A DNA stretch of 64,000 nt from contig NZ_JH376661.1 in assembly GCF_000233955.1 (NCBI RefSeq), positions 62,001-126,000 of the forward strand. Direction: 5' to 3'. Numbering within the stretch: position 1 is the first letter of the stretch; each line of letters starts with the position of its first letter. Made by a program: the position numbers and the translations under genes. This DNA is from Paraprevotella clara YIT 11840. GTDB taxonomy: Bacteria > Bacteroidota > Bacteroidia > Bacteroidales > Bacteroidaceae. This document shows positions 5,683 through 54,700 of this stretch, one piece after another. The notes beneath the pieces are model-generated. The model had not been told where the DNA came from. It worked only from the letters and a program-made list of their open reading frames with translations, and did no database searches.

Positions 5683-8280
5683 TTACCGGTGTAAAACCCT
5701 CTTGCACGGCGATTCATCCATAAAGAGGTAACTCTTCTGATATCCGCCGCAATCCACTACGATCTTTTCAAACACGATTCCCGGATCTAAAGGTTTAAGG
5801 GTAAGCAACTGCATCCCGTCCGTAGATGGAGGCACGGTAAGCTTCACGGTCTTCTCTACCACGCGGCGGGCCACCGTCGGATAAAACACGCTGTATACGT
5901 TCTCCGACTCTTCATTCAAATCGGCATTGAAATTGACCACCGTCTCTTTTCCCCCATCAAAACCGACGGTATATTCGTGGCCTTTCACATCATGAAAAGC
6001 CAGCGTGGACTTGACTACTACATGTACGTTGACTTCCGACACATTTTCCGGAAGAGCCATCTTGTAAGTCAGCGACGCGCCTTCCACGCCCCCAGTGTAA
6101 GGCATCAATGCCACACCGCTCAACGTACGTCCCAAATAAGGAATGACCTTCCAATCGGCTGATGCCGAAGGATTTGCCTCGAAATAATGCTCGGCCTCCA
6201 TAGACACCACGCCATACTTGCCCGTAAAGACATAGCCTCCCTTTTGTCGTTCGGGATTCTCTATCCGGAATACTTCCGGCATGATATTGGCACGGAAGTT
6301 ATCATTCCATGAGGTATATCCGATATGTTTCTGCGCCATCATGTTTTTCCATTTTCCCCCGGACATCACATTATTGTAGTCATCGCATAACAAAGAGTCA
6401 AACTTAAATGTCTGCACCACCTTATCCGCCCAAAAGTTAGCTTGCGGATTGTTCTCCTTATATAACTTATGGTTCATAGCCTGCGCATAATACATCTCAT
6501 AAAGATTAGCCATGGCTTGCACCGGGAAAAGAATCAACTGCTTGTAAGCATCATGATACTCCTGCGGCAAAGACAGATATTGGCGAAGCGCATCGGCCTC
6601 CAACTTACGGTATTCATCGGCCACCTGTTTCCACTCGCCGGTTTCTATATTATAAGTATGGCGGTCCAACATTTCCGGAGTCACACGCCCATTGTATTTG
6701 CTATAAAGGTTGAGAATACGCGCAGCTTCATCAGCCTGTTCTTCTCCAAACTGTCGGGCACAAAAACCACGCGGATGCTCCAGCAGGTTATCTGCCGTAT
6801 ACCGTTTCGGATTCCAAGCCATATCCAAAAACAAAGTAACGGGATACTCCATGGGTTTCAAATCACCCACATTAAGAATCCATAATTTATCCACACCGTA
6901 ATCATACGTCAACTGCAACTGCTCCCACATGTTCTGTATGGGAGTCACATTCAACCATTTTGAATTTCTCGGCGCACCGACATAATCCACATGATAATAC
7001 ATGCCCCAGCCTCCGGAACGTTTGCGTTCTTCCGCATTGGGCAGACGACGTACATTTCCCCAATTATCATCACAAAGCAACATGATTACATCATCCGGTA
7101 CGCGCAACCCCATATCATAAAAGCGTTGTACCTCTTTATATATGGCCCACACCTGAGGCCGCTCATCGGCGGGCTTGCCAGTCACGTCCTTTATGATTCT
7201 ACGCTGGTTCTTGATTACTTTCTTGAGCAAATTCATATTGTATTCGTCACGGTTGACATACTCATGGTCTGCACCTTCTTTTCCGCCCATCGGTGCATCA
7301 CCGTCGCCACGCATGCCGATGGTAATCAAGTCTTCGGTATCTTTCACTCGTTCTATTCCTTCACGGAAAAAACGATCGAGCACTTTTTGATTGGTCGCAT
7401 AATCCCATACTCCGTACTGTTTCCGTTTGCGCGCCCACTCCTGATGGTTACGCGCCATCGGTTCATGATGGGAAGTTCCCATTATAATTCCCATAGCATG
7501 AGCCGTCTTGCTGTTTTCGGGATCATCCGCATAAAAGCTCCAAGCCCACATGGCCGGCCACATGAAGTTTCCTCGCAAGCGAAGAATCAACTCGAAAACG
7601 CGGGCATAAAAACGGTGGTCTCCATAATTGGTTCCATAGGTATGCTTTACCCATCCCGTAAGACAAGGAGCTTCATCGTTCAGAAATATACCCCGGTATT
7701 TTACGGCCGGTTCACCGGCAGTGTATTCACCACGCCGAATATACAAGTCCTTACGTTGAACCACGGGCACATCCGCCCAATCATACCAGGGGGACACCCC
7801 TATCTGTTCTGAAAGCTCATATATGCCATAAATCGTTCCCCGCTTATCACTACCGATAACGACCCATGCCTCGTCTACTCCATCAAAAGGACGAGAAACT
7901 GCTTTCATCAAGTATTTCTCACGTTTACCTTTCAATGAGGTGATATCTATTTTCTTTGCCTTTACGAGTTCCTTGATAAATCGGCTCTCCAAAGAACCGG
8001 CCACGATCAAACGCGGCCCCCTCACGGAGTGGAGAAGTTCGGCTTGCCTTCCCGTCACTTTACGAAAATCATCTTGTAAGTTTTTCGCAGCAATGACAAT
8101 CCCGACGTCATCTTTTTCATCCAACAATATTGGAGTAGCCTTACCGCCCTCAATCAACGTAAAACAATCAGCGGCAGGCTGCTCAAAAGTAATCCCTTTG
8201 TTGTCGATAGCCCAAGCTGAACCTATCAGCCCACTCACCACCAATAATACCATTAACATTCTTCTTTTCCGCATAACCAT
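5683..8280 (-). CDS. Secreted GH115 xylan alpha-glucuronidase
   Basis: 865 residues with an N-terminal signal peptide (about residues 8-25, MLMVLLVVSGLIGSAWA). The sequence follows family GH115: YRGIFLNDEAPCLTGW near residue 195, RGNFMWPAMW, GMRGDGDAPM and LWILNVGDLKPMEYP. The aspartates and asparagine of the last two correspond, from memory, to the active-site Asp332 and Asn462 of BtGH115A. A C-terminal beta domain follows from about residue 690. The family removes 4-O-methyl-glucuronic or glucuronic acid side chains from xylan or arabinogalactan. The gene stands alone, with no SusC/D pair in the window. The start could be two codons later, at MRKRR. Confidence 0.9.
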   Translation of the reverse strand: MVMRKRRMLMVLLVVSGLIGSAWAIDNKGITFEQPAADCFTLIEGGKATPILLDEKDDVGIVIAAKNLQDDFRKVTGRQAELLHSVRGPRLIVAGSLESRFIKELVKAKKIDITSLKGKREKYLMKAVSRPFDGVDEAWVVIGSDKRGTIYGIYELSEQIGVSPWYDWADVPVVQRKDLYIRRGEYTAGEPAVKYRGIFLNDEAPCLTGWVKHTYGTNYGDHRFYARVFELILRLRGNFMWPAMWAWSFYADDPENSKTAHAMGIIMGTSHHEPMARNHQEWARKRKQYGVWDYATNQKVLDRFFREGIERVKDTEDLITIGMRGDGDAPMGGKEGADHEYVNRDEYNMNLLKKVIKNQRRIIKDVTGKPADERPQVWAIYKEVQRFYDMGLRVPDDVIMLLCDDNWGNVRRLPNAEERKRSGGWGMYYHVDYVGAPRNSKWLNVTPIQNMWEQLQLTYDYGVDKLWILNVGDLKPMEYPVTLFLDMAWNPKRYTADNLLEHPRGFCARQFGEEQADEAARILNLYSKYNGRVTPEMLDRHTYNIETGEWKQVADEYRKLEADALRQYLSLPQEYHDAYKQLILFPVQAMANLYEMYYAQAMNHKLYKENNPQANFWADKVVQTFKFDSLLCDDYNNVMSGGKWKNMMAQKHIGYTSWNDNFRANIMPEVFRIENPERQKGGYVFTGKYGVVSMEAEHYFEANPSASADWKVIPYLGRTLSGVALMPYTGGVEGASLTYKMALPENVSEVNVHVVVKSTLAFHDVKGHEYTVGFDGGKETVVNFNADLNEESENVYSVFYPTVARRVVEKTVKLTVPPSTDGMQLLTLKPLDPGIVFEKIVVDCGGYQKSYLFMDESPCKRVLHR

Positions 8281-9065: not shown

Positions 9066-12000
9066 TCACTTCACACACTTCTTACCGTCCACGACATACA
9101 CTCCGGAAGGCAACCCCTGTAAGGCAGCATTCTGCTTCACCGCAGACCTGACAAGCTTTCCGTCTGTAGTGTAGACATTGACCTTTGCATCCTCATCTGC
9201 TCCTTTCACCAGCCGTACCCCCGTCTGTTCACCATCTATATAAAGATTCAAACGCTTCGGAAAAACTCCCTCCAGATCCAAATAGCCCCGGAAAGCTTTA
9301 ATTTCCGTTCCCGTTTCGGCTTTTAAAAATACGTTCGGTTCATAAGCATATACATTATCTCCGTAGGGTACCACCTTCTGGAAAGTTCCCTGTAAACGAG
9401 CCGTAACAGCTCCATCTGAAACAACTGTTGCACCAGACGAAACGGCATCTGCATCTATTGTCACTTTCTCATAAGTTTGCACAGAGACCGTCTGAGCCAC
9501 CTTTACCAGATAAGGCACTCCCGCTACCATGTCGCGCACATTCCCAAAATTCAAGTTACAATCCTCTCCGGCCAATTCCACGCTTTCCAATGCCTTCACC
9601 TCTTCAAAATACTTTCGAACCTGAGCCGAAGACAAATCGAACGGTAAGCAAACCATATTCCACAGCCCTGGCAACAAGTTCTGCCGTACTGTCACCGTGC
9701 CATACGTCCCATCCCGCACGTCAAAACGGCTATCGTCCTCACTCAACTCCGATACGTCACTGCCATAATACATCAGCTTCACATCTGCCAAACCAACCCA
9801 ATTTGCCGTATTGCCGACACCGCCCACCAGGCCTATTTCAGCCGTACGAGAAGAGACCGCACCTTTCACCGAGAAATAATCCAGCACCGCAGATGTCACG
9901 TCAGTCTGCTGCCCGTTCAAATACAGAGCCACATTCATGTCTGCCACATCGGCACTGCTCAATTCCACCTTTCGGAATGCCGCAGCCGTCAATTCATAGT
10001 TTCCATTCGGGAGCGAACCCACCGTCTGGTAAATGGGGCGTTTCCCATCCTTCAGTTCATTACCCGGACCAATCCAGTTTTCATAGAACACACCACCTCC
10101 GTATTCCCCGTTCTGTGCAGTATTGACCAAGGAACGGAAGTTCACCGTCCCGTCGTTCAACCAGCCGCCGTCCGCATTGCAAGCGGCATTATTCACCTTG
10201 AACGTCATGTCAAAAGCGATGCCGTTCAGCGGTTCCGCATCTATCACGTACCTCTGGCGTGCGGACTCTAAATTCTCGCACGCTTTCTGCACAGCCGACA
10301 CATCTACGGCTTTCTCAGCCTCTGTTGCGGCAGACACAATATTGTTCTTGAAAATCGTAAGCGAAGAACTCAATTTAGGAACAGAATTCCCGGCAATCTC
10401 CTCTGCCACCATTTTCCGGTTCCGATATACTTCATAAGCCACCATGACACTGCGGGCATTCTCTATTTCCTTCATCAAGCCAGACAACGCCCGCCCCAGA
10501 GAATCCACTGTAATGGAAGATACGTCTACTGCCACAGCCTCATCCAACAACGTTTCTACAACTTGCGGCAAAAGTTCGCGGTCGAGTGAGCGAGCCACAG
10601 CCACCTGTGCCTCCCACGTTTGTCGCAAGTCATCATCTCCTACGCCCAGATATTCCAATACGAAATCATTCATCACACACCACATTCCGGCATTATCGCA
10701 TACTGCGCCCACGGTCAACTGCCCATCACCCACAAAAACATCTGTGTAAATACGCGAAACGGTTGCACCGGCATTCAAGTCCTCTGCATTCTGCCCCAGA
10801 TGCAATGACGTATTCGCCCCATCGGCCCGCGTCTTATCCACACTATACACCGAAACCGGTAAACCACCGGTAGTCTTCACATACAACCGGAAGTGCTTAT
10901 TGGATGTGCCCAAATCGCTTCGCGCCTGCATACTCACCCGGTAGTTTCCTAACGGGAGCCCTGTCAACAATTGATGACAATCAAAAGTGGTATGCCAGAA
11001 CTCCATCACTCCCTGACTGAACTTAGGATAGTTCGCATCCGATACCGTAAGCGTCCACCCGGTCGTATTTCCAATGTCAAAACCAGCATTTTGTATCCGC
11101 GCCGTCAAATCGACCGGATGTGCAACAGACGCATTATCCAAACGGTATTGCTCCATCGCATCCAGCAAGGCATGATAAGCCGCCATACGTTCACGTGCCT
11201 CAGCGGACACCAATAATACACGCGCCTCATCGACCGCCTTTTTCAGAGCACCGCCCTTGTCTTCACCATACGTCAACGTATCTGAAGCCGCCACCGCTTC
11301 TTCAAGCAACATGTACGGACTTTGATACTCCAAAGCCACGTCGGCAAACGACACCCACTGACATGCATTATTCAAACCGGACTCCACTCCCACCGTCAAA
11401 TCTTGGTCGAGTACATCCGTCGCCACTTCCGTCTCACGTAAAACCTTAACCGACGTCACCGGAGACCTGTCGTCATTGGCAAACAATTCTATTACCCCTC
11501 CGTCGGCTCCTTTCTGTGCAACCGCCTTGAAGACATAGCGCCCAACAGGTAATCCGGATGCAGACGCATAAATCAAACGCTGTCCGGCCAAGAAATTGCC
11601 CGTACAATAACGTTCTATCATGTTCTCTCCCGTAGCATCCCCACGCTGCGCATCCGACCCTTCTATGGCAAACACACGATAATTACCACCTTCAGCATCG
11701 GTCATCCAATGCGTACGGCTATCAAACATCACGTCGGTTCCCGAAGGCAACAGACGCCCTCCGTCCGGCAAAACCGAACTGACATCCACAGCTTTGCCCG
11801 CATGGGGTAAATAGGCCTTCCAAGCCTTATCCAAATTCTCATAAGCCCTGAAAACCTCATCGGCCGAACCCGCTACAGCAAAAAGTTCCAATGCTTCTTT
11901 CAACGAGGCATCGTCCACTCCCTCCGTCTCTACAAACTTCTTATACCTCTCGTACGCATCCTTGTAGTCCTCATAATGTACCTGCAACAGGTGTATCTCT

Positions 12001-14498
12001 CCCAACACGCGTTGATAACGCACGGCCGTCTCTATCCCATCCGAAGCCGATTCTTTCAATCCGACCAACTGCTGCCAAAGCTCAGATGTCACCTCATCCT
12101 CCCGAATGGCATCCGCCTCTTTTCGCATGGCAGACAAATCAACTGACAAATCCGTCTCCCCAAGGTAAAGCAAACTAAAGTTATCCATGGCAAACCAATT
12201 CATGCCATTCGCCGAATAAGCATAATTCTGATCGGTCATATTCTTGGCTCCGAAAGTTACCTTGCCCTCTTCGCCGACATAGAACTCTACCGTAAAACGT
12301 CCGGCCTCCCCATCCAGTGAAGCCACCGGCGTATTTACCCCGCCGGCATACAAATACACGTCTTTTACATAATTACGGGCAGCCTCTCCGCTCTTGCCTT
12401 GTTGCGTGGCAATGACAGATGCCCCCAATTCATATTTACCCGGCTTCAAACCTTCAAGGGTCTGAAATATGTTAAAACGTTCCTGTCCCCAACAAGTCCG
12501 ACCATCCTCCGAAGCCGTACGTTTACGTTCGATATAAGGCTGGCTTAACCCCGAAACTGACGACACACCCTTTTGAAAACCTTCCACGTCCGTCATCCAC
12601 AGTTCAGGTTTCTCACAATCAGGGTCCGGCAAAGAATGAGTCAACTCATTTGCATTGGGAATAATATGGAAGGATTTCTCTATTACGACTCCCGACTGGT
12701 TAGTCAAACGGAATATCAACTCATGTTCCTGGTCGTCCTCTAAAGTATATGTATAGGAACCTCCCGTGGCCAACTGCCTGCCGTTCTCATCATACCATAT
12801 TTCACTTTCTATGTAGTTCCAGTTCGCATAAGAAGTGCTCACGGTCAGCGAACGCCCTTTTCCCATCAAGACTTCACTGCCTTCCACCACCTGACCGTTA
12901 TATACGGCCGTTGAGGACAACGTTCCTTTAATCCCCTCACCGCGTACGGACACGGAAAACATTTGTGTACTCTCTATTCCATGGGTATTCGTGTACGTAA
13001 GACGATATATTCCGGAATGTTCAGCCGTGACCTGCCGTTGCTGTCCGGCCGCTCCGTCATCCCATGTCCATTTTCCCGTATTGCTCTCCCCCTCGGGTAA
13101 AGTAGCCGACAAGGTCAATACAGCTCCCGGTTCCACATCTCGGATTTCCGCATATTTTCGGGTTTCCGTCTTTCCGGCTATCACAGGAAAAAGAATTGTA
13201 GGCGTTTGTTCCGCAGTAACCGGCCGGTCACTGTACATCAAGTCGCCAAATCCCGTATGGTCATACCCTCCGCTATTGTTCCCATACGAACCACCGCCAC
13301 GCTCCATTCCGATAATCCCTTTCATCGTCCGGCAAAAGTTCATCGGGATTCCCATCCGGTTCTCGTAATGATTGATAAACAACTGCCAAATAGGACGCCA
13401 TTGCCCGCGTCCGGTAGCATTCAATCCCCCCATCCACCAATTCTGTTTATAAGGCAGGTCGTCCGTGCCACTATTGTATGCAGCCACGTATTCCGCTGCA
13501 CCGGCTACCATCGCCGCACCGGCCTGGCCTGGTATCAGCGTATTCGTCAAATTGCAAAAAGCATTGTCTCCCTGATTGTAAGCCGACTCAAAAGCGTACG
13601 ACAACAAGCCCAACGCCGCCATGGCATGCCCTTGATCGCGCCCGCTCTCTTGCATTTGGTTCAAATAACCTAACGGTCCACGCTCGTCTTTATGGAACCA
13701 AGGTATCAGTCCCCAACCATAGCCGCACAAACCCTGTCCGAACGCATCGGGATGAAGGGCCGTCACGCAAAGCGACTCATTGCCCGGTCCTTCTTTCAAC
13801 CAATACATACCGTAATTATATATGTCCGGTAAGTCGCATAATACCCCCAAAGAAACACAGAAAAGCGCATTTCCCAATCCCCAGTTACTATGGTAATGAT
13901 ACCAGTTTTGTTCGCGCTCTACCGTATCATGCCGACGTTCCAAAAAATCTTGTGCCGTAGTAAACCATACATCTATCATGTATTGCTTAAACAATTCAAA
14001 ATCTTCTTCCGGCCATTTCTTATAATCGCGCATGATTTCGGCAGCATTGATAAACTGGTAACCGATAAATCCGGGAATCAACGAAATATTCGTATTGCCG
14101 GCAAGTCCTTTGTTATAGATACGGTAAGCATTCAATACGTCTATGGCCACGTCGCCATAGCCCTCATCTCCCGTAATCTTCCATAACAATGCACATTGAT
14201 AAGCCCGCGCCGCATTACGGTAAGCATTCATATAATTCTCCTGACCGGATATTCCACGTGAAATATACTCGTTCACGCCCCAGTTATGTCCGTGGTCTCC
14301 ATTTACGGGAGGAGCCGTACGCAAGGCTTCCAAAGCCTCCAAAGCATGCTCATCTCCTGCGGCCAAGCGGGCACGCACGGCCTCAAAGTCCTCCTCCGAG
14401 TGTAGCAGGCCAGGGTGGCGGAAAGCCGCCTCTTGGGCATATAACGTGCCTGCCACGAGAGCTACACTAAATAAACACAATAATAATCTTCGTTTCAT
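9066..14498 (-). CDS. Very large secreted alginate-lyase-superfamily protein
   Basis: 1810 residues with a signal peptide (residues 1-21). Residues 25-430 resemble the alpha/alpha-toroid alginate lyase superfamily: NWGVNEYISRG, NWYHYHSNWGLGN near 198 and the hallmark ESGRDQGHA at about 284. Two Ig/PKD-like stretches follow (about 440-620), then four jelly-roll carbohydrate-binding-like modules alternating with helical linkers (about 620-1590), a beta module containing LWNMVCLPF and GVPYLVK, and a tail ending GVYVVDGKK. The tail resembles type IX sorting domains. The substrate is probably an acidic polysaccharide; PL38 or a relative is possible but not provable here. The start codon lies only about 28 bases beyond a strong terminator, leaving little room for a promoter. 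Confidence 0.75.
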   Translation of the reverse strand: MKRRLLLCLFSVALVAGTLYAQEAAFRHPGLLHSEEDFEAVRARLAAGDEHALEALEALRTAPPVNGDHGHNWGVNEYISRGISGQENYMNAYRNAARAYQCALLWKITGDEGYGDVAIDVLNAYRIYNKGLAGNTNISLIPGFIGYQFINAAEIMRDYKKWPEEDFELFKQYMIDVWFTTAQDFLERRHDTVEREQNWYHYHSNWGLGNALFCVSLGVLCDLPDIYNYGMYWLKEGPGNESLCVTALHPDAFGQGLCGYGWGLIPWFHKDERGPLGYLNQMQESGRDQGHAMAALGLLSYAFESAYNQGDNAFCNLTNTLIPGQAGAAMVAGAAEYVAAYNSGTDDLPYKQNWWMGGLNATGRGQWRPIWQLFINHYENRMGIPMNFCRTMKGIIGMERGGGSYGNNSGGYDHTGFGDLMYSDRPVTAEQTPTILFPVIAGKTETRKYAEIRDVEPGAVLTLSATLPEGESNTGKWTWDDGAAGQQRQVTAEHSGIYRLTYTNTHGIESTQMFSVSVRGEGIKGTLSSTAVYNGQVVEGSEVLMGKGRSLTVSTSYANWNYIESEIWYDENGRQLATGGSYTYTLEDDQEHELIFRLTNQSGVVIEKSFHIIPNANELTHSLPDPDCEKPELWMTDVEGFQKGVSSVSGLSQPYIERKRTASEDGRTCWGQERFNIFQTLEGLKPGKYELGASVIATQQGKSGEAARNYVKDVYLYAGGVNTPVASLDGEAGRFTVEFYVGEEGKVTFGAKNMTDQNYAYSANGMNWFAMDNFSLLYLGETDLSVDLSAMRKEADAIREDEVTSELWQQLVGLKESASDGIETAVRYQRVLGEIHLLQVHYEDYKDAYERYKKFVETEGVDDASLKEALELFAVAGSADEVFRAYENLDKAWKAYLPHAGKAVDVSSVLPDGGRLLPSGTDVMFDSRTHWMTDAEGGNYRVFAIEGSDAQRGDATGENMIERYCTGNFLAGQRLIYASASGLPVGRYVFKAVAQKGADGGVIELFANDDRSPVTSVKVLRETEVATDVLDQDLTVGVESGLNNACQWVSFADVALEYQSPYMLLEEAVAASDTLTYGEDKGGALKKAVDEARVLLVSAEARERMAAYHALLDAMEQYRLDNASVAHPVDLTARIQNAGFDIGNTTGWTLTVSDANYPKFSQGVMEFWHTTFDCHQLLTGLPLGNYRVSMQARSDLGTSNKHFRLYVKTTGGLPVSVYSVDKTRADGANTSLHLGQNAEDLNAGATVSRIYTDVFVGDGQLTVGAVCDNAGMWCVMNDFVLEYLGVGDDDLRQTWEAQVAVARSLDRELLPQVVETLLDEAVAVDVSSITVDSLGRALSGLMKEIENARSVMVAYEVYRNRKMVAEEIAGNSVPKLSSSLTIFKNNIVSAATEAEKAVDVSAVQKACENLESARQRYVIDAEPLNGIAFDMTFKVNNAACNADGGWLNDGTVNFRSLVNTAQNGEYGGGVFYENWIGPGNELKDGKRPIYQTVGSLPNGNYELTAAAFRKVELSSADVADMNVALYLNGQQTDVTSAVLDYFSVKGAVSSRTAEIGLVGGVGNTANWVGLADVKLMYYGSDVSELSEDDSRFDVRDGTYGTVTVRQNLLPGLWNMVCLPFDLSSAQVRKYFEEVKALESVELAGEDCNLNFGNVRDMVAGVPYLVKVAQTVSVQTYEKVTIDADAVSSGATVVSDGAVTARLQGTFQKVVPYGDNVYAYEPNVFLKAETGTEIKAFRGYLDLEGVFPKRLNLYIDGEQTGVRLVKGADEDAKVNVYTTDGKLVRSAVKQNAALQGLPSGVYVVDGKKCVK

Positions 14499-29172: not shown

Positions 29173-29295
29173 TTTAAGTTCTAATTTTTAAAGGTTCTTG
29201 CAGGAATCCCAAGTCATTGCAGCCGCGACTACAGAAAGGAAATGAAGCCCTTGAAAATCGTTGGAATCCCTACTGTTATTATGGGTTATCTCTTA
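29173..29295 (-). other. Spacer between rpsK and rpsD, possible RNA element
   Basis: Most gaps around it are under 20 bases; this one is 123. The minus-strand word GGGATTCC occurs twice, 60 bases apart (29203-29210 and 29263-29270). No reading frame is convincing. It may be a leader for S4/alpha translation control, but no known consensus was recognised. Confidence 0.35.
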
Positions 29296-45172: not shown

Positions 45173-45275
45173 GTGTTTTCCTCTTATTTAAAGGTTAGCC
45201 CCCATACAAAGCCTCCTACGGCATAGTATTTTAACTTATTTTTCACCGAAAAAGTGTTTTTTACGGATTCAAGGC

Positions 45276-45301
45276 AAAAAAAGAAGGAGGACTAAGCCTC
45301 C
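45276..45301 (-). terminator. Terminator overlapping the end of the DUF3467 gene
   Basis: GGAGG and CCTCC pair around CTTAGT, which contains the stop codon region of the DUF3467 gene, and TTCTTTTTTT follows on the minus strand. It separates that gene from the rpsL promoter. Confidence 0.8.
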
Positions 45302-45615
45302 CCTTTATTGATTTTGAACGGAGCCACCGTACGAGGTCCGCCCTGATGCATATCTATTTCTCCGAAGTTGTGTTCGTACTTATTAATATTGTCCTGCAAG
45401 GCATAAAGCAAACGTTTGGCATGCTCCGGAGCCATGACGATACGGGATTTCACATTAGCTTTAGGCAATCCCGGCATCATGCACACGAAGTCTATAATCA
45501 CCTCGGACGTGGAGTGCGCAATCATGGCCAAGTTTGCGTATGTTCCCTGAGCTACTTCCGGACTAATCTCTATTTGCAGCATACCTTCCTGCTGCGGTTT
45601 TTCTTCATTACTCAT
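45292..45615 (-). CDS. DUF3467 family protein
   Basis: 107 residues. The sequence QIEISPEVAQGTYANLAMIAHS, then FVCMMPGLPKANVKSRIVMAPEHAKRLL (both conserved blocks, cited in part) matches the small DUF3467 family common in Bacteroidota. No signal peptide or membrane segment. As I recall, its neighbours rpoC and rpsL are conserved in Bacteroides, but its function is unknown. It has its own promoter and terminator. Confidence 0.86.
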   Translation of the reverse strand: MSNEEKPQQEGMLQIEISPEVAQGTYANLAMIAHSTSEVIIDFVCMMPGLPKANVKSRIVMAPEHAKRLLYALQDNINKYEHNFGEIDMHQGGPRTVAPFKINKGEA

Positions 45616-45659
45616 AATCGTTAGAATTTATATTTCATATACCTATTTATATATAGGCA

Positions 45660-45691
45660 CAAATATAGGCATTTTCTCCCGTAACGACAAT
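45660..45691 (-). promoter_or_regulatory. Promoter of the DUF3467 gene
   Basis: Minus strand TATATTTG (45660-45667) is a perfect TAnnTTTG; ATTG (45688-45691) lies 20 bases upstream. The leader would be about 35 bases. Confidence 0.75.
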
Positions 45692-45985
45692 ATGCGGACT
45701 AAAAAAGCCATGCCAATTCTCCAACTGCCATATCAAGGCCATCGTGTTTTGCCCCATATATCCCATTGTACAGAAAGCCCGTAATACTATCACTTCCCCC
45801 AAAGCATTCTCGGGAGCCTTTTCACCTGACAAAATAAAAGCTAAAAGTACGTTTTCTTATGCTACAAGCAAGTAAAAGGGAACAATACGACAAATATTAA
45901 AAAACCAGTAGCAATCATTTAGAGAGGTTTTCATGAATAAATATCCAAAAATACACTGAACAAACGAATATTTCACGCATATATG

Positions 45986-46050
45986 CAAATCGTTCACAGC
46001 CAAACGAAAAATCATTCGGCTGAAAGCGAAAAATCATCTGGCGCAGAATG
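45986..46050. repeat. Alternating-word intergenic element, copy 2
   Basis: Words CAGCC and GGCTG (inverted) alternate with AT-rich spacers AAACGAAAAATCATT and AAGCGAAAAATCATC, followed by TGGCGC. Spacer length and the core GAAAAATC match the element at 26785-26867, although the word itself differs. Confidence 0.5.
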
Positions 46051-46287
46051 AGGAAAAGCAGTGTGGGAAAAAGCCCAAAAACGTCCCAAAAATGGGAAAA
46101 GATGGACTGAGAACGGCCTGCCAAGAGCCAGAACGGACGTTTCGACATACATTTGGCAACTATCAAAAAGCTCCCGGAAACGCCCTTGCGCTTTACCGGA
46201 ACGATACACCATGCGCCCAAGCCGACCGGCCTTCCGGCAAAAAGGCAACCTAAGCCCCCATTCCCTTGCAAACAGGAAACCGCAAAA

Positions 46288-46350
46288 CCGATGAGAATCG
46301 TTTATTTTCCTCCATGGCCCCACTCGTCCCCAAATGGACGATTCTCACGG
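46288..46350. repeat. Long interrupted inverted repeat
   Basis: TGAGAATCGT (46292-46301) is perfectly inverted at 46338-46347, with flanking CCG/CGG and an inner TCCAT/ATGGA pair, forming a cruciform-capable stem with a loop of about 18-36 bases. No transposase or terminator T-run is attached. Confidence 0.5.
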
Positions 46351-46650
46351 GGAGAAACTTACTTTTTGACATTCTGGCGTATCTCTCCCCCGGTGGCTCC
46401 CTACACTCATTCATAAGAAATACATCGCCTTTCCGGCATGATACCTTTCATCGACACATAAAACTCGCAGCATGTAGAATTGTTGTAATACTCAACGACA
46501 TCACTGCCTGAATGTCATACTTCGAAAAAAACATCTGAAAAAGGAGTTATAAAACTGCTTACCCTTCGGTGCACTCCCTCTCATCCCGAATACAATAATA
46601 TCTTATATAGGCAATCGGAGCAAATCATAACCAAAACATATCTGCAACAA

Positions 46651-46677
46651 GAGCTGTAATCTGAAAAAATACAGCTC
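46651..46677 (-). terminator. Hairpin downstream of the 663-residue gene
   Basis: GAGCTGTA and TACAGCTC pair perfectly around 11 bases, about 60 bases beyond the stop at 46737. The following T content is weak (TTGTTGCAG), so it may protect the message 3' end rather than terminate alone. Confidence 0.45.
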
Positions 46678-46736
46678 TCGTTGTTATAATATGAAATTCA
46701 TACGAGCTTCACTAAATGGCGGACAAATACAATTAT

Positions 46737-48728
46737 TTATTGCCTCTGGAATTTTGCAGAATATTTCTGTCCTCTAATATCATAATAGTTCAAGACGTAT
46801 GTACCCTTCCTCAAAGAACCGATTTGTATAATGGGAGACGGACTCTCTACTTTTCCTTTCAATAAGGGACGAAGCATGTAACCGTCTAAAGGCAGTATCT
46901 CATACGAAACTAACAAATGCTTGGACTTACTGCGACTACGTGTATCCTTAATCTGGATTTCATCTCGGAACATCTGCACCTCAAAATTCGATTCTGTAGG
47001 TTCCAACGGAGCTATCTCTAATGTCTCACTTCTTACACTACCGTTCTTGTTATAAGCTATGATGGTAAATTTCGAATAAAATTCCTTATCTACCGTTGCC
47101 ACAAAATATCCTTTTTTGAAGTCATTGACCTCAAATACGCTCGGTACACGGTCGCCTTCATCCAATTGTTCCACAAGGATACGCTCTGTACCTTCCAAGT
47201 TCTTTATTCCTATTTTGATGTCTCTCATGTATTCATTGGCTGATACATGGGTGGACACAGCAGGCATAATGCCAGAAAACTTCAGTTCCGTACGTTGTGG
47301 CAGGTAGTCCAACACATAATAACGTGTTTTCATTAAGCGAAGCTCCTTATAGCCGTTCCCAACATGAATAATATTTAAATTGCATCGGTTAATTCTACAC
47401 CGTAAATACCCGTCACAAGTACGTGCATAGTCATTGGCGTCATCATTTATATTTAATTTGTCTAATTCTATTTTTAGATCTGTGGGTATAGGAGGTATAA
47501 TCTGACTTATTATATCCCACGTACCGTCTTTTTTCAGCAGAGCAACACTAACCCCTTCGCGTGTCAAAAATCCTCCCGGACGATAATTATGGTCGTATGG
47601 CTCGCAATAATCATTTATACTAAATGATGTCATATTATACGGGATGTTCACACTTTCCGCAATAGTAGAAGTTCCATTTTGTTCTTGTAATGTATTTATA
47701 GCATCAGTCAAATCCAACACCCCATTGTATTCAATTAGATTGCTTGTAGAAGCAGGCACCGAACTATTTTGGTTTACCCCATCTCCTGTTGGATAGTCGG
47801 ACATGTTCCAATCCAAAAAATTTTCTAATAGATCAGAATAATCGTCCGAGATATCACGTATTACACTACCCTTTCCAAAGTTGTAAGACAATAGCTCTGT
47901 TATTTTATAATTAGATTTTGCCACAAACGTATTTAATGAAATTCCGTTTTGCCACACCGGAGGAGCATATAACAACATGTTATTTCCTAAATGAATTTGT
48001 CCTTGAGTCGCATCCTTATACGCATCAAATGGGTCAGATGATAAATGCCTATTTACCGCTTGCTCAAAAGGAGTACATCTACTTTCATCCACTGTAAGCG
48101 TCTTGTTCACGACGTTGGCCGGAAACTTCCAATAAAAGCCTAACCCTCTGGCAATATCCCGTAGAGCTACAGTTACAAAATCATATTTATTTACCGGAGT
48201 AGAATACAATGAAAACGAGAACTCATCTAACATGTCCTCATTATAAGTGATTTCAAAATCAGGTTTGGTGAAAAATGCACTATCCACGTCATAAATGAAA
48301 CGCTCCTGATATCCTCTCATGTACTCAGAAAACACTACATATTTCACCTGTGTGGGAAGGCAAGTGTACAAATGTCCATATTGGTCTTCCCATTGATACG
48401 AGCCTATTTCCATTTTAGATAATGGTTTCTGCCCTCCAGAAGCTCGGATATTTCCAATTTTTGCCGTTATGTCAAAGGGCAATGAAGTAGGTAGTTGTTC
48501 TTCCCATATTTTACAGGCGTACTCAAAAGCACCTTTCATCTCATTCGTCCAGTTGCCTTCATACTTTACCCGGAACACGGTTCCACCGGATATTTCACGT
48601 ACCACTGGTAAGTCTAAACACTTCTCTATGTACTCATCAAAACCATAGGAATACACTTCGTCCAAGTTTTGGCCGTACGCCATCCATCCTGCTGACAGGC
48701 AGGAACACAAAACAATAAATCTTTTCAT
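46737..48728 (-). CDS. Secreted metzincin-like protein with degenerate zinc site (RDIAR)
   Basis: 663 residues with a signal peptide (about 1-20, ending AYGQ). An N-terminal beta region (FRVKYEGNWTNEMKGAFEYACKIWEEQL, cited as the family's opening block) precedes KYDFVTVALRDIARGLGF at about residue 180-198. In active Bacteroidota relatives I know, this segment reads ...LHEIAHGLGF; here Arg190, Asp191 and Arg194 replace His, Glu and His. Further family landmarks remain: LLYAPPVWQNGISL and SVIRDISDDYSDLLENFLDW. The C-terminus ends with a short sorting-domain-like beta tail. It overlaps the 352-residue gene by four bases (ATGA). Protease activity is unlikely; binding or scaffolding is inferred. 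The gene is AT-rich compared with neighbours. Confidence 0.72.
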   Translation of the reverse strand: MKRFIVLCSCLSAGWMAYGQNLDEVYSYGFDEYIEKCLDLPVVREISGGTVFRVKYEGNWTNEMKGAFEYACKIWEEQLPTSLPFDITAKIGNIRASGGQKPLSKMEIGSYQWEDQYGHLYTCLPTQVKYVVFSEYMRGYQERFIYDVDSAFFTKPDFEITYNEDMLDEFSFSLYSTPVNKYDFVTVALRDIARGLGFYWKFPANVVNKTLTVDESRCTPFEQAVNRHLSSDPFDAYKDATQGQIHLGNNMLLYAPPVWQNGISLNTFVAKSNYKITELLSYNFGKGSVIRDISDDYSDLLENFLDWNMSDYPTGDGVNQNSSVPASTSNLIEYNGVLDLTDAINTLQEQNGTSTIAESVNIPYNMTSFSINDYCEPYDHNYRPGGFLTREGVSVALLKKDGTWDIISQIIPPIPTDLKIELDKLNINDDANDYARTCDGYLRCRINRCNLNIIHVGNGYKELRLMKTRYYVLDYLPQRTELKFSGIMPAVSTHVSANEYMRDIKIGIKNLEGTERILVEQLDEGDRVPSVFEVNDFKKGYFVATVDKEFYSKFTIIAYNKNGSVRSETLEIAPLEPTESNFEVQMFRDEIQIKDTRSRSKSKHLLVSYEILPLDGYMLRPLLKGKVESPSPIIQIGSLRKGTYVLNYYDIRGQKYSAKFQRQ

Positions 48729-49783
48729 TGCTTCTGAATTTTAGTTGTTATTACTTTGTTTTCCGTGGTTCGGCAAGATACTACATAACATCCTTTGACC
48801 AAATCGGATAGTTCCATGTCTTCGCCTCCACTTTGTTTTTTTACTAATATTCCTCCATGTGTATAGACAGAAAGTTCTTGCACCTGCGAACGGTCACCTT
48901 CTATTCCCACACAATGGTTTCTAAACACGATACGGATTTGCCTTGTATCATGTGAGATGGTAAAAATAGCGGATGCTTCTTTTTCCAACTCTGCCAAGCG
49001 AGATAAAATGCCTAGGTCTTGGATATAATTGGTGGAGCAAAGGGTATCGCAGGCTACTACGCCATACTTGTTAAATACGTTAATGCAATAAAACTGCCCC
49101 CAATCAACCAAATTTGTTTTCACACTCCATTCACCGTCACTGACTTTAACTGCGGCCTCCCACATACTATGAAAATATGATTGGGTTGATGGAAATTCAA
49201 AATAAAAGGGATCTCCCGTTATAATATAGCACCCGTCACTTCTTTCTGGACGGAAAGAGATGCTAAATTCGGCATTGGGAAAGAAATCATCATATTCCCA
49301 ATCATATTTGGTATACGTGAATGTTGCTCCAATGATCTTAGCACGTGAGGGCAACAAATTAAAATGAACATTCATACTGTCCACTTTCTCTTGTTCATTC
49401 CATAAATAAACCATACCCTTAAAATAAACAGAAGAATCCCCGTCCTCCCCGTAAAAATTATAAGCATAACGCCAATTGATTAACTCAGGATATATGCTAA
49501 ACGTTTTTGCGCTTTCTTCAGAATGTAAAGCCTCTACTAAAACTGGAGACTCATCCGGAAATATAAGATGTTCTTCCCGGTGCACCTTATAAAGTGCGAA
49601 ACTCCAATCATACTTTTGTTCATTGCCATCAACATGGAAAGTACATGTATCCCCATCCAAAAAAGCATATCCGTCCGTAACCTTACGTCCGTCTTGCAAG
49701 GTAATAATAGAAGAAATTTTCTGAGGCATGTTTTGCTGCAAAAGGCAACAAAGCATGATTATTAATATCATGGTACGTTTCAT
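48725..49783 (-). CDS. Secreted protein of unknown function in the degenerate-protease operon
   Basis: 352 residues, not recognised. A signal peptide is clear (about 1-20, MILIIMLCCLLQQ). The body is beta-rich, with many aromatic residues (NWRYAYNFYGEDGDSSVYF), and ends with a tail of the form LSVYTHGGILVKKQ ... LVKGCYVVSCRTTENKVITTKIQ, like the sorting-type tails of its two neighbours. No catalytic motif is visible. It overlaps both neighbours by four bases (ATGA), so all three are translated as a coupled set. Confidence 0.65.
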   Translation of the reverse strand: MKRTMILIIMLCCLLQQNMPQKISSIITLQDGRKVTDGYAFLDGDTCTFHVDGNEQKYDWSFALYKVHREEHLIFPDESPVLVEALHSEESAKTFSIYPELINWRYAYNFYGEDGDSSVYFKGMVYLWNEQEKVDSMNVHFNLLPSRAKIIGATFTYTKYDWEYDDFFPNAEFSISFRPERSDGCYIITGDPFYFEFPSTQSYFHSMWEAAVKVSDGEWSVKTNLVDWGQFYCINVFNKYGVVACDTLCSTNYIQDLGILSRLAELEKEASAIFTISHDTRQIRIVFRNHCVGIEGDRSQVQELSVYTHGGILVKKQSGGEDMELSDLVKGCYVVSCRTTENKVITTKIQKQ

Positions 49784-51522
49784 GGTTTCAAATATTTGGT
49801 GGTTTTAACACATCCTTTCTCTGTATAGAACTTAAGAATGTACAATCCCCTTTCTTGCATCCGAAGTTCATTCAGTTGGAGAATATTTCTTATATACCTT
49901 CCATGGTCATCGTATACTTCTATATAAGCATATTTGTTTTGTATCTCAGGTTGATTTAATGAAGTCCTCGTCCTTGCGTATTCCACAAATGGAGGCAATT
50001 CTATTGTGTATAACTCTTTCCCGTATTTATTTTCAGCCTCAATATCAATCCAAGCATAATTAAACGATATGATATTGGGGATAAAGACATGTGCCATAAA
50101 TGGCTCATACACAAATCTTCGTCGCACCTCTGGATTATACTCTTCTTCTGTACAAACATATAACATCTCTGCCCCCGAATACTCCACATTAAAAACTAAA
50201 TTATAATAGTCTAACAAGGTACTACTTTCTTTTTTAATGATGTTCACAGCTCTGATCTGAGGTTTTAATCCCAACGACAAGTAAAATACATCTTCCACCT
50301 TTTTCCCATCAAGCAAACCTGTGAACATGATTTTTCCGGGAATATCCCCATCCACATTGACCAAATATTTACTTTCATCGTCCACAGCCCCGATTTGAAA
50401 AGACAGTGTATTTACAGCCTGGGAGATGATTGTATCTTTCCCGTTAGGCAGAGACAAGGTATAACACCATTGCGCTTCCGAGATTATTCCTCCAGACGTT
50501 TTTTTGAGAGAAAAACTGTGCCCCTCATAGGCAGAAGCCATACCCGTATCGTCTATTCCCTGCCCCACAATTTCTACAGTTTTGGGAGTATCCAATCCCC
50601 ATCCTATAGCATTTAAAAGTTCCACTGTGGTAGCATCAACAGTAAATGGCTTGGTTCCCGTTTTCAAATCATAGTGCATTAGTGATTCCGAATTATCCAA
50701 GTAAATCAATGATTTGTAGATTTCAAACTTTTCCGGAGCATACAATTTGTGCCTGTCATCCTGCTTTAATGCATACAAGTACGTTCCTTGTTCTGGCTGG
50801 ACAAATGCTGTCAATTCTGGATTCTCCCGATTTCCTATATTAGAGATATCTTTCAGGTACTTCCCTTGGGATGAAAAGATGAATTCATCAAAGATAGAAC
50901 AGCCTTCATTTTCGCTAAACGCAATTATATCTTTTCCGCGTATGGTTTTCTGGGTCACACTTGACCCGAATCCTAATGAGACAGCGATAGCACGCATCAA
51001 TGCGTAGGTCATGCTTCGTGTGGATGCATTGATACTTGTATTGTAACTGCAATCCCAAGGTTTACGTTTGTTGATATAAATCAAAGCATCTACAGGAGTG
51101 TTTTCATCATTCATTTCCTTATCGTACAGTTGAGCATACAAACTTTTCGGGTAGTATACATTTTCTTCCGGATAATAAATCACTTCTACCCGCATATCAT
51201 CATCTGTATCCAAATCTTCATAAAACACCTTGATTTTAATTGGAAACTTGTTGTTCAAGTAAGGTTGCCAAAGTGTAGCCGCAACATTAGCGCAGATTTT
51301 TACAGAATCCGGTATACTGGCATCCTTTATATCTATGTCTATCACACCTCTTTGACTGCTACTCAAACGTTTTTCCTTGGACGGTATGGTTTGAGCAATC
51401 GAAGCAGATTCGTTTGCCCTGAATTTTTCAGCAAAAATTAAAGTTTCAAAATCCTGTGGCCATGCCTCCGTTGAAAAAAGGAGCATTAAACAACCAAACA
51501 TCATTTTTAAGACATTGTTCAT
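49780..51522 (-). CDS. Secreted metzincin-like protein with degenerate zinc site (RAIAV)
   Basis: 580 residues from the ATG at 51522, chosen because an in-frame ATG at 51552 coincides with the predicted transcription start. The signal peptide is NNVLKMMFGCLMLLFSTEA. The segment SMTYALMRAIAVSLGFGSS (R177 to F185 in this numbering) aligns with a HExxHGLGF zinc motif but carries R, A and V in place of H, E and H. LYAPEKFEIYKSLIYLDN, LMHYDL and TTVELLNAIGWGLD follow, as in active relatives (LYAP ... LM ... L-DIGW). A sorting-like tail ends GLYILKFYTEKG. First gene of the operon. Confidence 0.72.
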   Translation of the reverse strand: MNNVLKMMFGCLMLLFSTEAWPQDFETLIFAEKFRANESASIAQTIPSKEKRLSSSQRGVIDIDIKDASIPDSVKICANVAATLWQPYLNNKFPIKIKVFYEDLDTDDDMRVEVIYYPEENVYYPKSLYAQLYDKEMNDENTPVDALIYINKRKPWDCSYNTSINASTRSMTYALMRAIAVSLGFGSSVTQKTIRGKDIIAFSENEGCSIFDEFIFSSQGKYLKDISNIGNRENPELTAFVQPEQGTYLYALKQDDRHKLYAPEKFEIYKSLIYLDNSESLMHYDLKTGTKPFTVDATTVELLNAIGWGLDTPKTVEIVGQGIDDTGMASAYEGHSFSLKKTSGGIISEAQWCYTLSLPNGKDTIISQAVNTLSFQIGAVDDESKYLVNVDGDIPGKIMFTGLLDGKKVEDVFYLSLGLKPQIRAVNIIKKESSTLLDYYNLVFNVEYSGAEMLYVCTEEEYNPEVRRRFVYEPFMAHVFIPNIISFNYAWIDIEAENKYGKELYTIELPPFVEYARTRTSLNQPEIQNKYAYIEVYDDHGRYIRNILQLNELRMQERGLYILKFYTEKGCVKTTKYLKP

Positions 51523-51554
51523 AACACTATAATTTAGTTTAATATTCGACATGG

Positions 51555-51585
51555 TAAAGATATGTATTTTTCAGTATACTGCAAA
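51555..51585 (-). promoter_or_regulatory. Promoter of the degenerate-protease operon
   Basis: Minus strand TTTG (51582-51585), 19 bases, TATCTTTA (51555-51562, one mismatch from TAnnTTTG). The start point would be close to 51549, favouring the ATG at 51522 for the first gene. Confidence 0.68.
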
Positions 51586-51716
51586 ATATTTTCAAAAATA
51601 TACAATATTACTCGCTTTTTATTAAAACAGACATTTGGGATAATATAGATGATTCCGACTTACTACCTTATACCTTAAAGAACTATTTGGTTTCGAATCC
51701 ACCTTATCGAAAACAA

Positions 51717-51753
51717 GAAAAAGCCGCTCCGGAAATTCCGGAACGGCTTTTTC
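51717..51753 (-). terminator. Terminator after rpoC
   Basis: A-run, then GCCGTTCCGGAA paired with TTTCCGGAGCGGC, then TTTTTC on the minus strand; the stem is nearly symmetric. It lies 27 bases past the rpoC stop and ends the rplKAJL-rpoBC transcript. Confidence 0.9.
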
Positions 51754-51779
51754 TTACTACTGGCTAAAAGCAGTCTATT

Positions 51780-54700
51780 TTACTCATCCAAATCAAGGAT
51801 AGACTTACGATTGGCCATCAGGCGGTCGTACTCCTCCTTGCAGCCTACGACAATCTTGCCGAACTCACGAAGTCCCGTACCTGCCGGTATCAGATGACCA
51901 CAGATGACGTTCTCCTTCATACCTTCGAGTTTATCGGTCTTTCCATTGATGGCCGCGTCATTCAGCACCTTCGTCGTTTCCTGGAAGGAAGCTGCCGACA
52001 TGAAGCTCGAAGTCTGTAATGCCGCACGGGTAATACCTTGCAGAATCTGGATTGAGGTGGCCGGCATGGCGTCACGTACCTGCACCAACTTCAAATCCTT
52101 ACGTTTCAACGTAGAATTCTCGTCACGCAACTTACGGGCCGTCACAATCATACCTTTTTGCATCGTTTCCGAGTCACCGGCATCCACCACGACTTTCTTG
52201 CCCCAAATGCGGTCGTTCTCTTCCGCGAAATCGAGCTTGTCCACAATCTGCTGCTCCAAGAATCGAGTGTCGCCCGGTTCGTCAATCTGCACCTTACGCA
52301 TCATCTGACGGACAATCACCTCAAAGTGCTTGTCGTTAATCTTCACACCTTGCAAACGGTACACGTCCTGTATCTCGTTCACGATATATTCCTGCACCGC
52401 CGTAGGACCTTTAATGGCCAAAATGTCGGCTGGCGTAGTGGCACCGTCTGATAGTGGAGTTCCGGCACGTACGTAGTCGTTCTCTTGTACCAGAATCTGC
52501 TTGGACAACGGTACGAGATACTTCTTCACTTCACCCAACTTGGAAGTGACGATAATCTCACGGTTACCGCGTTTCAGTTTACCCATCGTGATCTCACCGT
52601 CGATTTCCGAAACGACAGCGGGATTAGACGGATTACGCGCTTCGAACAACTCGGTCACACGCGGAAGACCTCCCGTGATGTCGCCGGCTTTACCTACGGC
52701 ACGCGGAATCTTCACCAATACGTCTCCGGCTTTGACAATCTGCTTATCCTCAATAGCCAAGTGTCCGCCGATGGGGAAGTTATACGTACGAATCAGCTCT
52801 CCGTTCTCGTCCAAGATATGAGCCGAAGGAACCTTCGTCCTGTCTTTTGACTCTATGATGATCATCTCGCGCAGACCCGTCGTCTCATCGGCTTCCACAC
52901 GATAAGTCACACCTTCTATCACGTCTTCAAACTGAATCTTACCCGGAGTTTCCGTCACGATAACCGCGTTAAACGGATCCCACTTGGCTATCAGCTTGCC
53001 TTTCTCTACTTTATCTCCTTCGTTCACATACAAAGTAGAACCGTAAGGCACATTTTGCGTGAAGAGGACAATATCGGTATTCACGTCGACGAAGCGGACC
53101 TCGGCCAAACGTCCTACCACCATCTTGGCTGCATTTCCGGTCTCATCGGTAATATCTACCGTACGCAACTCTTCGAACTCTACCTTCGAATCGTACTTCG
53201 CGACGATAGATGCATTGGCTGCCGCATTCGAAGCCACACCACCGGCATGGAACGTACGCAACGTCAACTGTGTACCCGGCTCACCGATGGACTGGGCGGC
53301 AATCACGCCGACCGCCTCGCCTTTCTGTACCATCCGGCTCGTAGCCAAGTTGCGGCCATAGCACTTCATGCAGACTCCCTTACGGCTCTCGCAAGTCAAT
53401 ACGGAACGGATTTCCACACTCTCGATCGGAGAGTCTTCGATTTCCTGTGCCTTGTCTTCCGTGATTTCCTCCCCGGCGGAAACAATCAACTTACCCGTCG
53501 TAGGATTGATAATATCATGCACGGACACACGTCCTAGAATACGTTCGTAAAGTGAAGAAATGACTTCATCGCCGTTCTTCAAAGCCGTACATACCAGACC
53601 GCGCAACGTACCGCAATCCTCTTCCGTGATAATCACGTCGTGGGATACGTCTACAAGACGACGCGTCAAGTAACCGGCATCGGCTGTCTTCAAGGCCGTA
53701 TCGGCCAAACCCTTACGGGCACCGTGGGTAGAAATGAAGTACTCCAACACGCTCATGCCTTCCTTGAAGTTGGAAAGAATCGGGTTTTCGATAATCTGGG
53801 CACCTTCGGCTCCGGCTTTCTGGGGCTTGGCCATCAAACCACGCATACCGGAAAGCTGGCTGATCTGTCCGGCAGAACCACGGGCTCCGGAATCCAACAT
53901 CATATATACGGCATTGAAACCCTGGTCGGCTTCTTTCATGGTCTTCATCAAGACCTTGGAAAGGTCATTGTTGACGTGTGTCCAAGTATCGATGACCTGG
54001 TTATAACGTTCGTTGTCCGTGATGAAACCCATACCATAATCATTGGCAATGCGTTCCACTTCTTCGTTTCCGCGACGAACCAGTTCCTCTTTTTCTTCCG
54101 GAATGATAATATCACCCAAGTTGAACGACAAACCGCCCACGTATGCCATACGATAACCCAGATTCTTGATACCGTCCAGGAATTCGCAGGCACGAGCCAC
54201 ACCTACCGTCTTGATCACGTCGGTGATGATGCCGCGCAAAGTCTTTTTGGAAATGATGTCATTGAAATAACCGACTTCTTCCGGTATGATTTCGTTGACA
54301 ATCACACGGCCTACGGACGTTTCCACCATCTTCTTTTCCAGCTCGCCATTCGCATTCAGGTCCTTTACCACAACTTTAATAGGCGCATGAATGTCTACAC
54401 GCTTCTCATTGTAAGCAATGATAGCCTCTTCGGGACCATAGAATGTCAAACCTTCGCCCTTAGAACCGGGACGGAGCTTGGTAATATAGTACAAGCCCAA
54501 CACCATATCCTGAGAAGGCACCGTAATCGGCGCACCGTTTGCCGGATTCAGGATATTATGAGACTGCAACATCAGAATCTGAGCTTCCAGAATCGCTTCG
54601 TTGCTCAAAGGCAAATGCACAGCCATCTGGTCACCGTCGAAGTCGGCATTGAACGCCGTACAAGCCAACGGATGCAACTGGATAGCCTTACCTTCTATCA

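Follow-up and report, generated by a model that had tools for sequence, protein, structure and literature searches.

The window, a 64,000-nucleotide stretch of Paraprevotella clara YIT 11840, a gut commensal in the Prevotella group (contig NZ_JH376661.1, positions 62,001 to 126,000 of the forward strand; positions below are those of the stretch), carries on its minus strand an operon of three overlapping genes, here called A, B, and C. Gene A (49780..51522) encodes 580 amino acids (aa) from an ATG at 51522, gene B (48725..49783) encodes 352 aa, and gene C (46737..48728) encodes 663 aa. Both joints are ATGA overlaps (A/B, 49780..49783; B/C, 48725..48728; minus strand), and all three reading frames (3/3) were intact. 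The coordinates, lengths, and overlaps given in a preliminary description of this DNA were reproduced. On the minus strand the operon is flanked by rpoC and by a small 107-aa gene, presumably of the DUF3467 type. The GC content was 38–39% in A, B, and C, compared with 46% in the window and 49.6% in rpoC.

A terminator-like hairpin of 20 pairs lies behind rpoC (51714..51756, minus strand), so that the operon looks separate from rpoC. Just upstream of A, a candidate Bacteroidota promoter (TTTTG-N19-TATCTTTA) occupies 51555..51586 on the minus strand. Started from another in-frame ATG further upstream (51552), A would have 590 aa, but the candidate promoter (51586-51555) favors the 580-aa start. 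The preliminary description had proposed a single promoter. One candidate indeed precedes A, which may or may not be the only one; a sigma-70 scan of 45200-51900 returned 21 matches against 21.2 in shuffled sequences.

The three predicted proteins share a common plan, with a signal peptide (recognized by eye) at the N-terminus and a domain resembling those sorted by the type IX secretion system (T9SS) at the C-terminus. In A, a pseudo-metallopeptidase domain (residues ~47-309, delimited by a hidden Markov model [HMM] of the relatives described below) is followed by two Ig/FnIII-like domains (residues ~313-512, from AlphaFold2 structure matches) and the T9SS-like domain (residues ~525-580, a weak match to the sorting-domain model). 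C has a pseudo-metallopeptidase domain (residues ~50-295, same HMM), an Ig/FnIII-like region (residues ~478-577), and a T9SS-like domain (residues ~581-663), whereas the body of B has no peptidase domain. The AlphaFold2 model of A (20 sequences; mean predicted local distance difference test [pLDDT] 81.8, predicted template modeling score 0.61) showed a mixed alpha/beta N-terminal domain, in which the dead motif begins on helix 171-182, and a beta tail after the Ig/FnIII-like domains. Its best Ig/FnIII match covered model residues 313-512 (Z 10.7, root-mean-square deviation [rmsd] 8.0, 170 aligned). The body of B weakly resembled the first Ig-like part of A (hhalign probability 46.7), and six other pairs of non-tail regions, the peptidase pair of A and C apart, scored 0.1-13.6. 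B was also fast-evolving, with 46% identity in two pairs compared with 59-62% for A and 66% for C (one pair measured). Pfam returned nothing at E ≤ 1 for window A or C and a weak sorting domain in B only.

The origin of the N-terminal domains was traced with an order-wide search of 393 genomes. The C profile matched 18 of them, 10 non-window genomes through the N-terminal domain and 7 through the tail; a second N-terminal match in G576 was left out. The resulting set of relatives comprised 10 frames from other families of the order, eight of 709-871 aa and two of 375 and 439 aa. All 10 contained HExxH (as HE[LIM]xH) and then G[LFI]G[FI], plus a distal His, a combination (HExxHxLGF with a distal third His) reminiscent of leishmanolysin. 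With Z fixed at 20000, an HMM built from the relatives alone matched residues 47-309 of window A at E 3.4e-18 and residues 50-295 of window C at E 2.8e-15. Because the relatives had been found with the C profile, only the link to A is independent of the search. By profile search, A and C contain a homologous NF038122-like domain. Against the NF038122 model itself, window A scored 15.3 bits and window C gave no match at E ≤ 1; the best C homologue (G391) reached 35.8 bits, and the cut-off is 80. Scanning genomes with that model gave four weak matches (G249:C4, G106:C80, G344:C1:1930385, and G402:C211), none of them in the window genome.

The active site of these domains was almost completely lost. 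In A, the helix that reads HExxHGLGF in the relatives reads RAIAVSLGF (residues 177-185; 50968..50994, minus strand), and in C it reads RDIARGLGF (residues 190-198; 48135..48161, minus strand); over a longer stretch, YDFVTTVLHELCHGLGF in a relative corresponds to YDFVTVALRDIARGLGF in window C. At the zinc-motif positions, A thus has RAIAV and a distal Tyr and C has RDIAR and a distal Thr. We counted the motif in 27 sequences (14 A-type and 13 C; X532 of G344, unaligned at the motif, was left out). The first zinc His was retained in none of the 27 and the distal His in 0/26 scorable sequences. The catalytic Glu survived in one (C of G391, RELCK) and the second His in three, all belonging to the A' paralogue. 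In C the second His was replaced by Arg or Lys in 13/13, and such a basic residue may take the place of the zinc. These losses identify A and C as pseudo-metallopeptidases, and, judged by sequence, the two are almost certainly dead descendants of T9SS-exported HExxH peptidases near NF038122. The preliminary description had called two of the proteins degenerate and protease-like, which proved right and stronger than first seen.

A' itself occurs in the window genome (L024 8382-10082, contig C5) and in the sister genome G017 (L022 6101-7855). It reads RHLAH and retains the second zinc His, and it lies near a topoisomerase-like gene, next to proteins of 487 aa and 910 aa (the latter receptor-like), with no B or C. 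Short proteins of 305–317 aa correspond to the Ig-Ig-tail half of A and have no pseudo-peptidase domain (L025 6192-7109, L026 6395-7312, L126 6317-7270, and L128 956-1909); such forms occur in G051, G024, G249, and G328.

The dead motif was among the most conserved parts of both proteins, with the 17-column window around it at the 97th percentile in A and the 96th in C; the region of the missing distal His reached the 99th percentile in A. The ratio of nonsynonymous to synonymous divergence (dN/dS) was 0.16-0.41 over seven pairs of related copies, all of them without window A, B, or C and five of them with dS > 1.2. The dead domains thus seem to be kept by selection. The A-type proteins (support 100/99) and the C proteins (100/98) formed separate clades, and the clade joining them had support of 72/46, so the active site was lost either once or twice.

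Export by T9SS was suggested mainly by the tails. The preliminary description had noted that these were similar, and profile comparison agreed, with probabilities of 86-97 among A, B, and C (C/B, 95.3; A/B, 96.8). The C-terminal part of the B profile matched 8glk_D (E 9.1e-7), 9x1i_A (4.6e-5), RemZ 8gl8_D (0.0029), and mirolase 8qb1_A (0.0049) in the PDB, and A matched 8glk_D at E 0.031. The modeled tail of C matched the mirolase C-terminal domain 8qb1_A (Z 9.0, rmsd 2.2, 78 aligned), a result tied within 1 with DUF3244 and FnIII entries. The T9SS type A sorting domain TIGR04183 was matched by 6/6 of the relatives scanned, two above its cut-off and four below. The window genome contained 52 sorting-domain matches at E ≤ 0.01, of which 31 were above the cut-off, and a nearly full-length SprA (model positions 2-2318 of 2319). 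Among 22 genomes that were picked, not drawn at random, and that did not include H. timonensis or P. histicola, SprA was present in 17 (11/12 with a C gene and 6/10 without). We consider it highly likely that A, B, and C are exported to the cell surface by T9SS.

The operon was recovered in other genomes. Nine loci were confirmed when an 84,980-species collection was scanned with two peptide patterns from the C alignment; three of these correspond to genomes of the family sample (L032 = G120, L033 = G004, and L035 = G039). The family sample (399 genomes) added G391, G249, G328, G344, and a second C locus of X. rodentium (G120, L127). Including the window genome (G000), there were 15 C-type loci, 14 of them with upstream sequence (the contig ends in G004, which belongs to the same genus as the window). 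An A-type gene preceded C in 13/14; in P. histicola it was a C-terminal remnant only, and in G344 the protein was A-like (A-profile E 7.3e-24) but divergent. B lay between A and C in 11/14 and was absent from G328, G344, and L127. In G328 (L123 1897-5765) an A'-type gene is followed by two tandem C copies, and L127 8036-9142 contains C model positions 268-663 alone, with no A or B upstream. The preliminary description would have been refuted by homologues that rarely co-occur, and they co-occur as a rule. Two contigs from metagenome-assembled genomes labeled Lachnospiraceae and Pseudoflavonifractor (L029, L030) carry an otherwise Bacteroidota operon, which suggests mislabeled records or mixed bins.

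The overlaps were also conserved. A and B overlapped by 4 bases in the window, in 7/7 compared loci, and in P. histicola, and by 1 base in G391. B and C likewise overlapped by 4 bases in the window, in 6/7 compared loci, in P. histicola, and in G249; the exceptions were KHT7 (1 base) and G391 (a 35-base gap). The genes flanking the operon varied from locus to locus. Overlapping genes kept together in this way in other genomes are not just a chance arrangement. In G249 (L125 1420-3873), A and B form a natural fusion of 817 aa, from which the tail of A and the signal peptide of B are gone, and a C fragment follows with a 4-base overlap. Over eight loci, Mantel correlations were 0.92 (A/B), 0.97 (A/C), and 0.89 (B/C), and values as high were found in 0, 0, and 2 of 5000 permutations, respectively. 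Both the co-divergence and the fusion fit a shared surface complex, although plain linkage predicts co-divergence too.

Our preferred reading, with a probability of roughly 0.55, is that the operon encodes a surface-anchored complex that binds protein and does not cleave it, and that it is an accessory, co-inherited unit. The lost catalytic residues, together with the apparent selection, suggest that the trio probably grips surface proteins rather than cuts them. Translational coupling would supply matched amounts of A, B, and C, which would be exported by Sec and then by T9SS, anchored on the outer face, and assembled there. Fast-evolving B would serve as an Ig-like bridge, and A and C would use their dead clefts to grip a polypeptide (from the host, from the diet, or a protease) without cutting it. 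A and B, at least, probably form a physical complex, and for a protein- or peptide-binding role of A-B-C the sequence evidence makes the chances about even. The preliminary description had likewise proposed equal amounts and a surface complex; linkage, fusion, and co-divergence agree with this, but the parts also occur apart (G106, A', G328, G344, and L127).

Several results weigh against this reading. Carriers are few: C was counted in 8/399 family genomes (G000, G120, G004, G391, G039, G328, G344, and G249). The C-profile search behind this count matched 20/399 genomes, with many matches in the tail only. The A-profile search matched 34/399; with short forms and one fragment set aside, 8 of these were counted as A-type (G000, G039, G120, G106, G249, G391, G017, and G328). 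First searches of 151 genomes gave matches in 9 with P0001 as the query and in 5 with P0002. The genes are also found separately: L021 (G106) has A alone, the A' loci of the window genome and G017 include neither B nor C, G328 and G344 have C but no B, and the C fragment of L127 lacks both partners. Some copies are broken or short (the A and C frames in L030, C in G004, and a short C in KHT7) or further decayed (P. histicola has only remnants of A and C, and G249 a C fragment). For the peptidase ancestry, 6/6 relatives scanned matched NF038122 at 35.2-63.6 bits, below the 80-bit cut-off. For the apparent selection, conservation around the distal His position of C reached only the 68th percentile, and the high dS values and the absence of window copies from the dN/dS pairs also count. 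The AlphaFold2 model of C was weak (pLDDT 45.9), so mainly its tail was used. The structure matches listed for A and C were filled by Ig/FnIII domains, with no solved peptidase among them, which is uninformative on the N-terminal domain. For export, window A (20.1 bits) and B (16.4 bits) fell below the TIGR04183 cut-off of 23. Window C had no TIGR04183 match at E ≤ 1, although C homologues do match. Of the three, only B was among the 52 sorting-domain matches of the genome, below the cut-off, and G400, which holds L029, had no SprA.

The separate occurrence of the parts would be expected if A, B, and C were separate, co-expressed surface adhesins, each with its own ligand bound through Ig/FnIII-like domains, with the dead domain as a structural cap and the operon as a means of co-regulation. 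The solitary A of G106, the A' genes that lack both partners, the C copies of G328 and G344 with no B beside them, and the short proteins without a peptidase domain in G051, G024, G249, and G328 all point this way, as does the Ig/FnIII-like part that fills the structure matches of A. We nevertheless consider it rather unlikely, because A and B are naturally fused in G249, the A-B-C order recurs, and the dead helices are among the most conserved windows. The broken copies in several relatives and the few genomes carrying the operon could instead mark the decaying remnant of an old peptidase operon, functionless in the window genome. This is highly improbable, since the window frames are intact (3/3), dN/dS in related copies is low as given above, and the ligand loss is common to the homologues examined while the surrounding helix is conserved.

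The dead clefts could also hold a protease or a protease target, by analogy with 00502 and 00509 of Paraprevotella clara. According to Li et al. (2022, PMC9477747), these proteins are T9SS-dependent, are anchored to polysaccharide, and recruit trypsin; recombinant 00502 and 00509 lacked protease activity, and 00502 coupled to beads recruited trypsin and brought about its degradation. The genus and the kind of anchoring correspond, and recruitment of this sort makes a protein-gripping role for A-B-C plausible. A decoy or recruiter of proteases is nonetheless very doubtful: 00502 was modeled there as WD40 plus Ig-like, a different architecture, two other genes explain the trypsin effect in that study, and no link of the operon with trypsin was seen here. 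Also unlikely is a heteromeric T9SS-built receptor on the surface of commensals of the Prevotella group. Its two metallopeptidase domains, paralogous and zinc-free, one of them having Arg/Lys at a zinc ligand, would act together to capture a particular protein of the host or the diet, or a protease.

The genomic setting of the operon was not conserved. In the sister genome G017, the rpoC flank was 95% identical over 1792 bases and the other flank 88% over 491 bases, and between them there was no A-B-C. An 887-aa protein with a secretion-like start (L184 525-3188; a weak MG2 match of 20.8 bits, cut-off 32.8) lay there instead, and further on there was more cargo, including a SPASM protein. Besides the window genome, six of the genus showed both rpoC and the DUF3467-type gene; the two were 200–380 bases apart in G008, G009, and G016 and had other content between them in G007, G010, and G017; the stretch of G011 ends short of rpoC and stands outside this count. 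The rpoC-DUF3467-type gap in Paraprevotella is a cargo slot. The preliminary description had pointed to the position next to polymerase and ribosomal genes; this means little, because in sister species the gap holds different cargo or none. The cargo in G017 (L184, L159), G007, G010, and G011 (L160, L161, and L162, respectively) included a SPASM protein, small secreted-looking peptides, and a group II intron maturase fragment, and in G011 a 1398-aa coiled-coil-like protein adjoins the DUF3467-type gene. Elsewhere on the minus strand of the window were an Rfam S4-Bacteroidia ribosomal protein leader (29220-29268; 36.8 bits, gathering score 34.7), a GH115 glycoside hydrolase (5683-8280), and a 1810-aa protein with an alginate-lyase match and a weak T9SS sorting tail (9066-14498).

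Pseudo-enzymes are well known in host–microbe biology. If the preferred reading is true, A-B-C would be a second protein-gripping system in Paraprevotella, directly testable in a commensal in which deletion mutants have been made, and if the receptor reading is true, it would represent a class of pseudo-protease complexes that work at the cell surface in colonization. The active-looking relatives, A, A', and C together make a natural series in which a zinc peptidase core survives without zinc.

The preliminary description had found no family name, and here ties to two families were established. NF038122 (metallo_LGF) proteins and their T9SS-tailed Bacteroidales relatives resemble A and C in the N-terminal domain (~250 residues) and in the terminal sorting domain; A and C differ in lacking the Glu (with one exception) and the zinc-binding histidines (one of which A' retains), in being shorter, and in belonging to a three-gene operon. 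Among T9SS type A cargo (TIGR04183/PF18962; the endonuclease I tail in 8glk and the mirolase domain in 8qb1), the tail of B is alike by profile, that of C by structure, and that of A weakly, and all three differ by scores below the curated cut-offs. The preliminary description had called the operon a candidate for an undescribed system, and the literature searches made returned no published description of a T9SS cargo operon of two dead peptidases and a third protein. We considered whether A-B-C might be the trypsin-recruiting 00502-00509 locus itself and rejected this on architecture, A being a pseudo-peptidase with Ig-like domains; family-model scans of A, B, and C found no WD40 and no Omp28. 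In that study (PMC9477747), 00502 is an Omp28-related protein with a modeled WD40 domain in a different gene cluster, which sets it apart, whereas the genus, T9SS anchoring, Ig-like domains, and non-catalytic recruitment make that system a close parallel to the role proposed for A-B-C.

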